From the NCBI RefSeq assembly GCF_019039035.1, contig NZ_JAHNZT010000027.1:1-64000 (forward strand): DNA of 64,000 nucleotides, given 5' to 3'. The position numbers and the translations under genes were made by a program. How positions within the stretch are numbered: position 1 is the first letter of the stretch; the number at the start of each line of letters is the position of its first letter. The notes beneath the pieces were generated by a model. That model saw only the letters and a list, made by a program, of their open reading frames with translations. It was not told the origin of the DNA and did not search any database. Source of the DNA: Citreicoccus inhibens (GTDB lineage Bacteria > Myxococcota > Myxococcia > Myxococcales > Myxococcaceae). Shown here piece by piece: positions 2,440 through 21,655 of this stretch.

Positions 2440-3942
2440 ATGAGGCGTCCCTTTGCATCCTCGCGCCCGTGGGAGGCGCTCGGCTCGCTGTCGGCGCGGC
2501 TCCTCGTCGCGTTCCTCGTGCCCACCCTGCTCTTCCTCACGCTCGCGGGCGTCACGGTGTACGCGCTGGCGCGCGCGAGCCTGGAGGACGAGCTGGGCGC
2601 CAGCCTGTCCGCGCTGGCCGCGGCCACGGCCAGTCAGGTGAATGGCGAGCGCATGCTCACCATCGAGCCGGGAGACGACCAGGGGGGGACGCGTACGTGG
2701 CGCGCGCTCGCGCGGCTCCTGGACGGCGTGCGCACGGCCAGCGGCGTGCGGCGCATCTACGCGGTGGACACGGCGGGCCGCGTGCGCGCGGACTCCGCCG
2801 GCAGCCTGCCCGTGGGCGCCGAGGTGCCCGAACTCGCGAGGGACCGCCTGGAGCTGTCGCGCGTCTTCGCGGGCAAACGCGCGGCCAGCCAGGTGCTCTT
2901 CACGGGCTCGGACGGGCTGCTCTACAAGACGGGCTACGCGCCCATCCTCCAGGATGGACAGGTGGTGGGCGCGGTGGGCGTGGAGGGCAGCGCCGCATAC
3001 TTCGTCCCGCTGCGCCGGCTGGGGCGCGCCTTCGCGGTGGCGAGCGCGGTGGCGCTCCTGGTGCTGGCGCTCATCGCGGTGCTCACCGCGCGCGGGTTCG
3101 CGCGGCCGCTGGGCCGGCTGATGGACTCGGCGCTGCGCATTGGCCGAGGCGACCTGACGACGCCCGTGCCCCCCGAGCCCACGCGCGAGATTGGCGTGCT
3201 CGCGCGCGAGCTGGAGGAGATGCGCCGCGCGCTGGAGGGGCGAGACCGGCAACTCAAGCTCATGCTCGCCGGCGTGGCCCACGAAGTGCGCAACCCGCTG
3301 GGCGGCATCGCGCTGTTCAGCGGCCTTCTGGAGGAGGACCTCCAGGCGGGCTCGCACGCGGAGGCCGGGGCGCACGTCGCGCGCATCCAACGCGAGGTGG
3401 CGTACCTGCAGCGCATCGTCGAGGACTTCCTCGCCTTCGCGCGCGAGCAACCCCTGGCGCGCGAGCCCGTGGAGGCGCCCGCGCTCGTGGACGGCGCGTG
3501 TGAGCTGCTCTCGATGGAGGCCGCGGCCCGAGGCGTGGTGCTGGAGGTGGAGGCCGCGCCCGCGCGCCTGGAGGCGGATGGGAGCCTGCTCACGGCCGCG
3601 CTGGTGAACCTGGTGAAGAACGCGGTGCAGGCCTCGCCGTCCGGAGCGCCCGTGCGCGTGACGGGCCAGGCCCAGGACGGGCGCTACACCATCCACGTGC
3701 GAGACCAGGGGCCCGGCGTCCCGGAGGCCCAGCGCGAGCGCATCTTCGAACCCTTCTTCACCACCCGCGAGCAGGGCACCGGCCTGGGCCTGCCGCTGGC
3801 GCGCAAGATTGCCCGCGCGCATGGCGGCGAGCTGGCGCTGACGTCTCAGCCCGGCGCCACCACGTTCCTGCTCACCCTGCCGCTGGCGCCCCAGGAGCCT
3901 CCGGACTCAGCGCCACCGCGTCCTCGTCCTCGTGGACGTTGA
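2440..3942 (+). CDS. Membrane sensor histidine kinase (HAMP-HisKA-HATPase)
   Basis: This 500-residue protein is a classical inner-membrane kinase. It has TM1 about residues 20-42, a periplasmic sensing region about 45-190, TM2 about 198-217, a HAMP linker, a HisKA domain with His281 in GVAHEVRNPLGG, and an ATPase domain with N box (LVNLVKNAVQAS), G1 (DQGPGVP) and G2 (GTGLGLPLA). No response regulator is adjacent, so its partner lies elsewhere. The last 71 bp are also read on the other strand as the C-terminus of a chemoreceptor gene. The Pro/Arg-rich tail encoded there (after LTLPLAP) is outside the conserved fold and probably exists only because of that overlap. Confidence 0.93.
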   Translation: MRRPFASSRPWEALGSLSARLLVAFLVPTLLFLTLAGVTVYALARASLEDELGASLSALAAATASQVNGERMLTIEPGDDQGGTRTWRALARLLDGVRTASGVRRIYAVDTAGRVRADSAGSLPVGAEVPELARDRLELSRVFAGKRAASQVLFTGSDGLLYKTGYAPILQDGQVVGAVGVEGSAAYFVPLRRLGRAFAVASAVALLVLALIAVLTARGFARPLGRLMDSALRIGRGDLTTPVPPEPTREIGVLARELEEMRRALEGRDRQLKLMLAGVAHEVRNPLGGIALFSGLLEEDLQAGSHAEAGAHVARIQREVAYLQRIVEDFLAFAREQPLAREPVEAPALVDGACELLSMEAAARGVVLEVEAAPARLEADGSLLTAALVNLVKNAVQASPSGAPVRVTGQAQDGRYTIHVRDQGPGVPEAQRERIFEPFFTTREQGTGLGLPLARKIARAHGGELALTSQPGATTFLLTLPLAPQEPPDSAPPRPRPRGR

Positions 3943-19221: not shown

Positions 19222-19416
19222 ATGCTGAAGCAACTGCTGGTGGGCGCCTCGCTGATGCTGGGTCTGGGGTTGGGCTTCGTCGCGGGAGCCCAGCAGGAGC
19301 CCGCGTCCGCGGGCTGGGTGTGCACCATGAATTCTCAGTGTGACCGTGGTTGCGGGGCACCGCGCTGTGGCATCTGCGACTACGAGGGCAAGTGCTGGTG
19401 TGGCTGCATGCCGTAG
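19222..19416 (+). CDS. Secreted 8-cysteine mini-protein
   Basis: The 64-residue product has a signal peptide (MLKQLLVGASLMLGLGLGFVAGA) followed by about 41 residues containing eight cysteines with spacing C-x5-C-x3-C-x4-C-x2-C-x5-C-x-C-x-C. It is expected to be exported and either disulfide-knotted or metal-binding. A GGAGGAG ribosome site precedes the ATG at 19222. Upstream at 19165-19183 is a TACAT-N9-ATGTA inverted repeat in a locally AT-rich stretch. No known family was recognised; it is unrelated in sequence to the 8-Cys lipoprotein at 2082. Ends 11 bp before the convergent end of the GntR-TetR gene. Confidence 0.75.
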   Translation: MLKQLLVGASLMLGLGLGFVAGAQQEPASAGWVCTMNSQCDRGCGAPRCGICDYEGKCWCGCMP

Positions 19417-19426
19417 CGGCCCCTGA

Positions 19427-20383
19427 CTACTTCGCGGCGCGCCTCTTCCGTCGCGCGAAGGAGTGCGCAAAGCCATCCAGCAGGGCCTTCATCCCCTGCT
19501 CGAACAGCGCATCGAGGTTCAACGTGTAGCCCTCCGCGGGCAGCTCCCGCAGGAGGGCAGCGAAGACAGGGAAGCGCCCCGACTCCGCGACGGACTTCAA
19601 CGCGGGCTCGTGGGCCGCGCCCCACTGGTCGTCCGACAGGCCCGTGGCCGCCTCGGCCTGGGCCTCTCGCTCCAGGTTGGAGGCGAGCCCCTGCATGTGA
19701 CTGAAGAGCAGCACATGCGCATCCAACAACGCCGCGCCTTCGAGACGCAGCGCCTTCAACGCGCGCAGAGACCACTCCGCATGGGCCAGCAGTCCGGGCA
19801 GTGGCAGCGGCCTGGAGAGCGGGCTGAGCTGGGCCAGCCACGGGTGACGGCGGAACAGCGACCACAGCGCGCGGCCCGCCAGCTCCAACTGCGCGCGCCA
19901 TCCCTCGGGAGGAACCTGGGGGTAGACGTACGCTCCGAACGCGGCGTCGGCCATGAGCAGGACGAGTTCCTCCTTGTCGCGCACGTGGCGGTACGACGAC
20001 ATGGTCGACACCTCGAGCCGTGACGCGACACCGCGCATGGACAGCGCCGAGAGTCCCTCGGCATCGGCCATCTCGATGGCGACGCGCACGATGCGCTCGC
20101 GCGTCAGCCCTCGCTCGGGGTCCTCGGGCTGCGGAGGCGGCGCTGGCGGCGTGGACGCTCCGCGCGGGAGCACCACGATTCCCACGCGGGGCTCGCCGCG
20201 CACCAGGCCTTCCTGCTGCAGGACGTTGAGCGCCTTCGTCGCCGTCGCGAGCGCCACGCGCCACTTGCGAGCGATCTGCCGAGTCGAAGGCAGACGCGCG
20301 CCCGGCGCGAGGGCTCCGGAGGCGATGCGCCGCCGAAGCTCTCCGGCGATGCGCAGGTAGGGAGCAGGCGTGGGCGTGCTCAC
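19427..20383 (-). CDS. GntR-TetR fusion transcriptional repressor
   Basis: The 318-residue protein joins two DNA-binding modules. Residues about 8-70 form a GntR winged helix (LRIAGELRRRIASGALAPG, LPSTRQIARKW, LNVLQQEGLVRGEPRVG). After a Pro-rich linker comes a TetR helix-turn-helix (IVRVAIEMADAEGLSALSMR, GVASRLEVSTMSSYRHVRDK) and a helical TetR_C-type ligand domain. Fusions of this kind are known, mainly in actinobacteria, usually next to drug or redox genes. GTG 20383 is preferred as start because GAGG lies six bases upstream; GTG 20389 is an alternative. It is divergent from an FAD monooxygenase; the intergenic dyads at 20396, 20438 and 20485 are likely its operators. Confidence 0.9.
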   Translation of the reverse strand: MSTPTPAPYLRIAGELRRRIASGALAPGARLPSTRQIARKWRVALATATKALNVLQQEGLVRGEPRVGIVVLPRGASTPPAPPPQPEDPERGLTRERIVRVAIEMADAEGLSALSMRGVASRLEVSTMSSYRHVRDKEELVLLMADAAFGAYVYPQVPPEGWRAQLELAGRALWSLFRRHPWLAQLSPLSRPLPLPGLLAHAEWSLRALKALRLEGAALLDAHVLLFSHMQGLASNLEREAQAEAATGLSDDQWGAAHEPALKSVAESGRFPVFAALLRELPAEGYTLNLDALFEQGMKALLDGFAHSFARRKRRAAK

Positions 20384-20395
20384 GGGCACCTCGCC

Positions 20396-20411
20396 GCTGT
20401 CCTAGGACAGC
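20396..20411. promoter_or_regulatory. Operator candidate A1 (16-bp perfect palindrome)
   Basis: GCTGTCCTAGGACAGC is a perfect 16-bp palindrome, 12 bp upstream of the GntR-TetR start and so next to its ribosome site. The GT-N6-AC layout is compatible with GntR-family operators. A second, partial copy lies at 20438. Confidence 0.65.
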
Positions 20412-20437
20412 CCTGTGCACGTCGTCCCCAGCGCTGC

Positions 20438-20453
20438 GCTGTCCTAGGGTAGA
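20438..20453. promoter_or_regulatory. Operator candidate A2 (partial copy of A1)
   Basis: The first 11 bases, GCTGTCCTAGG, are identical to site A1 and the right arm is degenerate. The centres of A1 and A2 are 42 bp apart, close to four helical turns, which would place two bound dimers on one DNA face. Confidence 0.55.
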
Positions 20454-20469
20454 TTCGCGCTCCGGCCAA

Positions 20470-20498
20470 TTGGCACCCCTCCGCGTACGGCGTACACA
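20470..20498 (+). promoter_or_regulatory. Candidate promoter of the FAD monooxygenase
   Basis: TTGGCA (20470-20475) and TACACA (20493-20498) are separated by 17 bp, giving a reasonable -35 and a weak -10. The -10 falls inside the GTAC dyad at 20485-20516, so a bound repressor would block it. The predicted transcript starts near 20505 and has a short leader with AGGGAG before the ATG at 20528. Confidence 0.45.
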
Positions 20499-20516
20499 TC
20501 ACCGTGTACATCGTAC
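20485..20516. promoter_or_regulatory. Operator candidate B (symmetric four-GTAC dyad)
   Basis: Four GTAC units start at 20485, 20492, 20506 and 20513, with offsets of 7, 14 and 7 bp, symmetric about 20500.5. The inner pair forms a perfect GTACAC-N6-GTGTAC inverted repeat. This sequence is unrelated to sites A1/A2. It overlaps the likely -10 and transcription start of the monooxygenase, as expected for a TetR-type operator. Confidence 0.65.
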
Positions 20517-20527
20517 AGGGAGACGCC

Positions 20528-21655
20528 ATGAAGACCGTCCTGATTTCCGGAGCGAGCATCGCGGGGCCTGCGCTGGCGTGGTGGCTCCGTCACCATGGAT
20601 TCGCGCCCACCGTGGTCGAGCAGGCGCCCGCGCCTCGGATGGGTGGACAGGCCATCGACATCCGCGGCACCGCGCTCCAGGTCATCGAGCGCATGGGGTT
20701 CCTCGCCGAGGCGCAGCGGGTCCGCACGCGCATGAAGGGCATGTCCGTGTTGGACCCGGACGGGAACGAGGTGATGCGCACCACCGAGATGACCTTCAGC
20801 GCAGGACCGCTGGACAGTGATGACCTGGAGCTGCTGCGCGAGGACCTCACGCGCATGCTCCTCGACTCGACCCGGCCGCAAGTGGAGTACCGCTTCGGCG
20901 ACTCCATCACCGCGCTCGCGCAGGACGCGCGAGGCGTGCACGTCGCGTTCAAGCACGGCCCGCCGCGCGACTTCGACCTCGTGGTGGGCGCGGACGGGCT
21001 GCACTCGAACGTGCGGCGCCATGCCTTCGGTCCTGAGTCGGACTGCGTGCGCCCGCTGGGGACGCAGCTCGCCATCTTCCGCGCGGAGAACTTCCTCAAC
21101 CTGGACCACTGGCAGGTGTGGATGCGGGATGGCGACGCGGGCTTCGGCATCTACCCCGTGCGCGACAACACCGAGCTGCGCATCACCGTCGGCTTCGGCG
21201 GCGCGCCCCAGGACACGCACTCGCGCGACCCCGAGGCGCAGAAGCGACTCGTGGCCGAGCGGCTCGCGCACCTGCGCTGGGAGACGCCTCGCATCCTGCG
21301 CGCCATGTGGGACGCCCCTGACTTCTACTTCGACGCGATGGCCCAGGTGCACCTGGAGCGCTGGTCCTCGGGGCGCGTGGCGCTGCTCGGTGACGCCGCG
21401 TGGTGCGCCTCACCGCTGTCGGGCCAGGGCACCAGCATGGCCCTGGTGGGCGCCTACGTCCTGGCCGAGGAGCTGGCTCGCGCCCAGGGGGACTACACCG
21501 GGGCGTTCCGTCGCTATGAGGAGCGCCTGCGCCCCTTCATCGCGCTCAATCAGGCCCTGGCCACGGAGAACCCGGGCGGACGGCCCTCGGAGGCGTCCAT
21601 CGCTCGGGCCAGCCACGCCATCTGTCTGGACGCCCCGGCGCCCGCGTCCCGGTGA
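20528..21655 (+). CDS. FAD-dependent monooxygenase (TetX/PHBH-like)
   Basis: The 375-residue flavoprotein belongs to the group A aromatic hydroxylase family. It has the dinucleotide-binding start VLISGASIAGPALAWWLRHHG, the DG-type motif in DLVVGADGLHSNVRRH and the FAD-ribityl-binding GRVALLGDAAWCASPLSGQG. Relatives hydroxylate aromatic compounds or inactivate antibiotics such as tetracyclines and rifamycins; the substrate cannot be read from sequence. AGGGAG precedes the ATG at 20528. Its position facing the GntR-TetR regulator across an operator-rich gap suggests induction by its substrate or a related toxic compound. Confidence 0.9.
   Translation: MKTVLISGASIAGPALAWWLRHHGFAPTVVEQAPAPRMGGQAIDIRGTALQVIERMGFLAEAQRVRTRMKGMSVLDPDGNEVMRTTEMTFSAGPLDSDDLELLREDLTRMLLDSTRPQVEYRFGDSITALAQDARGVHVAFKHGPPRDFDLVVGADGLHSNVRRHAFGPESDCVRPLGTQLAIFRAENFLNLDHWQVWMRDGDAGFGIYPVRDNTELRITVGFGGAPQDTHSRDPEAQKRLVAERLAHLRWETPRILRAMWDAPDFYFDAMAQVHLERWSSGRVALLGDAAWCASPLSGQGTSMALVGAYVLAEELARAQGDYTGAFRRYEERLRPFIALNQALATENPGGRPSEASIARASHAICLDAPAPASR

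Follow-up and report, generated by a model that had tools for sequence, protein, structure and literature searches.

A regulator with a GntR winged helix and a TetR helix-turn-helix in one chain is encoded divergently from an FAD-dependent monooxygenase in the window (the whole 64,000-nt stretch of DNA analysed), and the gap between the two genes contains two families of dyads, one built on CTAG and one on GTAC. Both families recur together in relatives of this gene pair and come apart beside homologues that have only one of the two heads. The protein is very probably a local repressor whose TetR head would read the GTAC sites and whose GntR head would read the CTAG sites. Most bacterial one-component regulators have one kind of DNA-reading head. 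The most likely reading of the present case is a SimR-like repressor that would have received a grafted GntR head and a second operator, an arrangement common in actinobacteria. We lean towards regarding it as a widespread natural class of two-headed repressors, each head with its own operator family, in which regulator level and enzyme expression would be set via two independent DNA codes. The GntR+TetR architecture itself already figures in public annotation, where it goes by GntR or TetR names; the open literature searched holds no description of a GntR–TetR regulator with two operators, and papers beyond that scope may exist. The features of the window are as follows.

19427–20389, minus strand: gene for the GntR+TetR regulator (320 aa, GTG start; Pfam scan and AlphaFold2 model)
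20396–20411, no strand: CTAG dyad 1, GCTGTCCTAGGACAGC, putative GntR-domain operator adjoining the regulator start
20438–20453, no strand: CTAG dyad 2, the partial copy GCTGTCCTAGGGTAGA, overlapping a possible regulator −10
20470–20475, plus strand: predicted monooxygenase −35, TTGGCA (from the sequence and the TTG geometry kept in relatives)
20485–20516, no strand: four-GTAC dyad, putative TetR-domain operator
20528–21655, plus strand: gene for the FAD-dependent monooxygenase, the presumed target (PRK05868 / tetracycline-destructase-like)

The regulator and its divergent gap

A Pfam scan locates GntR at residues 11–73, TetR_N at 100–144 and TetR_C_1 at 157–308, in agreement with the first-pass annotation, which had proposed a GntR winged helix and a TetR helix-turn-helix in one chain. 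The N-terminal winged helix-turn-helix matches PF00392 with 50.6 bits against a cut-off of 27, and the C-terminal part has the TetR_N helix-turn-helix and TetR_C_1 domain of the SimR-like TetR family. In the same scan, the UTRA (chorismate-lyase-like) effector domain of the GntR/HutC subfamily is absent, its place at the C-terminus being taken by TetR_N and TetR_C_1; the extra GntR head departs from the single DNA-binding domain of the TetR family, and there is one TetR module rather than the two per chain of Mce3R-type regulators. The AlphaFold2 model (pLDDT 93, pTM 0.70) displays a winged-helix head, a low-confidence proline-rich linker around residues 75–90 and then the TetR core. Structure comparison, which was carried out for the TetR part only, places SimR nearest (Z 20.9, 33% identity), while relatives of the GntR head come from sequence, by which it matches 1v4r (Transcriptional Repressor) and YvoA. 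The flexible, proline-rich linker differs in length between relatives. Column conservation reveals invariant residues in the GntR head (P34, S35, R37, T49 and A50) as well as in the TetR head (A108, D109, G112 and R119); several invariant columns lie within the DNA-reading elements of both heads, so that neither head seems vestigial.

On the regulator side of the gap, GCTGTCCTAGGACAGC is a perfect 16-bp palindrome with a GT-N6-AC core, and the partial copy lies exactly 42 bp from it; the first-pass annotation had given both, with all coordinates correct. A candidate regulator −10, TACCCT as read on the minus strand, sits inside CTAG site 2 in the window. Allowing up to three mismatches, the 16-mer has four matches in the 64,000 nt, against 0.34 expected, and TGTNCTAGNACA occurs a single time in the whole 9.05-Mb genome, at this gap. 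Of 137 loci, 30 have a TANNNT on the regulator strand at one constant distance from their first CTAG dyad, consistent with autorepression of the regulator; the TACCCT of the window departs from this arrangement.

On the enzyme side, the four-GTAC dyad has the form GTAC-N3-GTAC-N10-GTAC-N3-GTAC, i.e., two GTAC-N3-GTAC palindromes with their centres 21 bp apart. The second GTAC overlaps the −10 TACACA (20493–20498) of the predicted monooxygenase promoter, TTGGCA-N17-TACACA; a strict consensus promoter scan, in which the −10 must end in T, did not report this TACACA. The four-GTAC pattern has one exact match in the window, compared with 0.03 expected at up to three mismatches, and this is its single occurrence in the genome. 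A search for further genomic targets of the regulator returned none, both strict patterns being unique in the 9.05 Mb. The −10/−35 geometry at the GTAC site is conserved in relatives: a TTG stands at −15/−16 from the first GTAC site, 17–18 nt 5′ of the −10, in 61 of 123 loci, compared with about 2.4 loci for any other offset. In 63 of the 123, TACATT, TACGTT or TACACA occupies the right half of the first GTAC palindrome, which doubles as the partner −10. Since the palindrome coincides with the partner −10, occlusion of the partner promoter in the manner of TetR is the natural reading, and the position of the predicted operator over the divergent promoter is that of SimR-like TetR proteins. The first-pass annotation had placed the symmetric dyad correctly over the likely −10. 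It had also assigned the palindrome by the regulator's start to the regulator itself and the GTAC dyad to the monooxygenase, with which the positions agree.

The closest groups for the monooxygenase are PRK05868 and the tetracycline destructases, whose cut-offs it does not reach. On the other side of the regulator gene and converging on it is a 64-aa ORF (19222–19416, plus strand) with a signal-peptide-like start and nine cysteines in the mature part (VCTMNSQCDRGCGAPRCGICDYEGKCWCGCMP). It is absent from the other loci compared and has an 89%-identical, syntenic counterpart in the sister genome (L018:1290-1478).

Conservation of the dyads and their probable assignment to the two heads

Many Myxococcaceae and actinobacteria encode the same regulator beside a divergently oriented monooxygenase gene. 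The copy in a sister genome is 90% identical; the next nearest ones, at about 60% identity, are actinobacterial. In each of three actinobacterial families, about a third of the sampled genomes have a match at E ≤ 1e-60 (65/200, 66/200 and 86/201). The sister genome keeps 16 of 16 letters of CTAG dyad 1, 15 of 16 of site 2, all 16 GTAC letters of the four-GTAC dyad and 14 of 26 of the spacer between the CTAG sites. Almost all loci have a TGTACTAGTACA- or TGCACTAGTGCA-like dyad near the regulator start and, where the enzyme gene begins, a single or double GTAC-N3-GTAC palindrome; a second CTAG copy, deeper in the gap, is usual. A scan of 10 actinobacterial genomes for exact CTGTACTAGTACAG was overly strict and uninformative.

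We counted the dyads at loci encoding the two-headed fusion, calling a CTAG dyad at 9 or more of 10 defined positions and a GTAC dyad at 7 or more of 8, with dinucleotide shuffles as controls. In a first set of 69 non-redundant fusion loci, 63 had the CTAG dyad, 60 the GTAC dyad and 57 both, the shuffles giving 2.3% for CTAG and 9.8% for GTAC. A second, independent set of 80 fusion loci, drawn from the families of an Amycolatopsis and a Nonomuraea genome and from further Streptomycetaceae, gave 77, 64 and 63, respectively. Pooled over 149 non-redundant gene pairs from Myxococcaceae and actinobacteria, these counts are 140, 124 and 120; the 140 are GT...AC-flanked dyads at the regulator's own gene, putative operators of the palindromic NyGTNxACNy type. 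One motif is missing at the thresholds used in 12/69 and 17/80 loci, and two CTAG sites are present in 48/69 and 52/80, some loci having one only. Both dyads are often retained where the monooxygenase is replaced by an MFS pump or a hydrolase (several loci). Two loci with an MFS-like partner, L072 and L084, have two GTAC palindromes together with overlapping CTAG dyads (CCTAGTGCACTAGTGC) right at the regulator start. A second head appears to have been added in evolution, and a second operator for it to have been retained across two phyla.

To separate the contributions of the two heads, natural domain deletions were used. One group comprised TetR-only homologues, which lack the GntR head, at 29 non-redundant loci, almost exclusively of Myxococcia, with inspection of their reading frames; the other, GntR-other, comprised 31 loci encoding a related GntR head with a different C-terminus. 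The GTAC dyad was present at 17 of the 29 TetR-only loci (22 for the relaxed TAC-N3-GTA) and at none of the 31 GntR-other loci (Fisher p = 1e-7). CTAG was found at 2/29 TetR-only loci, a marked difference from the fusion loci (Fisher p = 4e-16), while 7/31 GntR-other loci had a CTAG-type dyad, against 1.5% in shuffles; the comparison between these two groups alone was not significant (Fisher p = 0.15). Because GTAC is kept in the TetR-only group, where CTAG is almost absent, and never occurs in GntR-other, it is most likely the TetR operator. The case that the GTAC dyad would serve the TetR domain is strong, and the case that the CTAG dyad would serve the GntR domain is strong by subtraction and modestly supported directly. 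The first-pass annotation had proposed a separate operator for each domain; in the intergenic regions of related genomes, both dyad families are conserved with the fusion proteins across two phyla and are split apart in the TetR-only and GntR-other groups. This pattern also speaks against the two outcomes it had set against its own proposal, namely that one dyad family alone would be conserved or that both domains would use the same site.

Covariation between amino acids and bases was rejected as a means of domain assignment: residue 47 of the GntR recognition helix ranks top, but phylogeny confounds the signal and TetR residues rank equally high. Four TetR-only paralogues (L011, L110, L111 and L113) face other genes and have the palindrome ATAC-N3-GTAT, or one near it, in place of GTAC-N3-GTAC. 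This variant is possibly a specificity switch inside one TetR subfamily.

Proposed mechanism, spacing and alternatives

In the mechanism we propose, the SimR-like C-terminal TetR module would bind the GTAC-N3-GTAC palindromes, which cover the monooxygenase −10, and keep this divergent gene shut as long as the TetR_C pocket is without ligand. On the regulator side, the winged helix of the N-terminal GntR domain would bind the CTAG dyads around its own promoter and start, and the protein would limit its own synthesis, an autoregulation suggested by the position of these sites; from CTAG site 2, the winged helix may also affect the partner promoter. Binding, the pairing of heads with sites, repression and the ligand are what we infer from the sequences. 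If the two-code reading is true, a ligand could free one head while the other stays bound. The system would allow a direct test of why a repressor separates self-control from target control, and about 150 paired putative operator sets are available for such tests and for the design of orthogonal switches.

Alternatively, a dimer or tetramer might hold the CTAG and GTAC operators at once, looping or co-occupying the roughly 45 bp between them and shutting both promoters together, which we consider unlikely. In the window and in many lineages, 44–46 bp separate CTAG site 2 from the first GTAC site, and in the discovery set this distance showed a helical-phase preference (p = 0.0004 with 17 clusters, p = 0.001 with 19). 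However, the preference was weak in the independent set (p = 0.02) and gone when the common 45-bp class was left out (p = 0.66), so we rejected helical phase as evidence for bridging. No robust helical phase was found across fusion loci in the distances from the first CTAG dyad to the second or to the GTAC site. The 42 bp between the two CTAG dyads, described in the first-pass annotation as four helical turns, are indeed that here but are not conserved: this spacing is shared with the sister genome only and ranges from about 22 to 108 bp in relatives. Certain loci own a single CTAG site, and a linker of flexible nature and variable length likewise argues against bridging. The earlier proposal that one protein bridges the operators is thus unsupported for now, as is obligatory bridging of both by one dimer.

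It is also rather improbable that the GntR head on CTAG site 2 acts from an upstream activator element of the monooxygenase promoter instead of a repressor site. Relative to the predicted transcription start, site 2 would fall at about −60 in many loci, with further common spacings around −72 and −82; class I activators use such positions. The phase test, however, fails on independent data, and the location of site 2 is equally consistent with autorepression of the regulator gene. A further alternative is that the dyads serve another host regulator, e.g., of the HutC type, and not the fused GntR head; CTAG-type dyads do stand beside the genes of some independent GntR-other proteins. This alternative we regard as very improbable, for the CTAG dyad accompanies the fusion gene in both phyla, with almost none beside TetR-only homologues, and the fused head retains its invariant DNA-reading positions; moreover, the dyad's occurrence once in the whole genome makes a global regulon unlikely. 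An origin of the dyads by chance or base composition, for which nothing speaks but the shortness of the half-sites, has a negligible probability: both strict patterns are unique genome-wide, and the dyads turn up again in about 150 non-redundant gene pairs at roughly 9- to 40-fold the shuffle rate.

Relation to known regulators

The two-headed repressor proposed here is best compared with SimR (TetR family, Streptomyces; PDB 2y2z and 3zql), the closest solved structure to its TetR module (33–34% identity, Z about 20). SimR represses a divergent gene, and the region between the two genes holds two operators for it (PMC5812520). Its dimer binds a 17-bp site (PMC4150764), and the symmetrical TGCGTAC-N3-GTACGCA of several relatives of the present regulator is also 17 bp long. 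Unlike the GntR winged helix, the N-terminal extension of SimR is short and flexible, and a second operator family is not described for SimR in the literature searched.

With the HutC subfamily of GntR (DasR, NagR, TraR/KorA), the regulator shares an N-terminal winged helix of the GntR Pfam family, but its C-terminus is TetR, whereas that of HutC proteins is a chorismate-lyase-like effector domain. GntR-family operators are palindromes of the form NyGTNxACNy, which the CTAG dyad fits, and divergons of this family usually have a pair of sites, one close to each operon (PMC4494728). Here GT and AC are 6 nt apart around a CTAG core, compared with the HutC norm of 4 nt (PMC4494728). Chimeras of the AraR type, in which a GntR head is joined to a LacI/GalR ligand domain (PMC4494728), are alike in that a GntR head is grafted onto a ligand domain from another regulator family; they differ in having one DNA-binding head, while the TetR part here retains its own helix-turn-helix and putative operator. 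Mce3R, a double-TetR repressor, does have two DNA-binding heads per chain (PMC11667970), but both are TetR and are joined as one asymmetric DNA-reading unit. In contrast, the heads of the present regulator come from different families and have separate palindromic putative operators.

A locus on the Corynebacterium glutamicum plasmid pAG1 (L048) has the same domain order, a divergent FAD monooxygenase and CTAG dyads; its regulator is distant (35% identity), and a GTAC dyad was not found at the locus. The annotated pAG1 regulator (3256–3936) begins inside the homologous frame (3001–3936) and omits most of the GntR head, which can be read upstream. Its start is probably a misannotation in this tetracycline-resistance plasmid.
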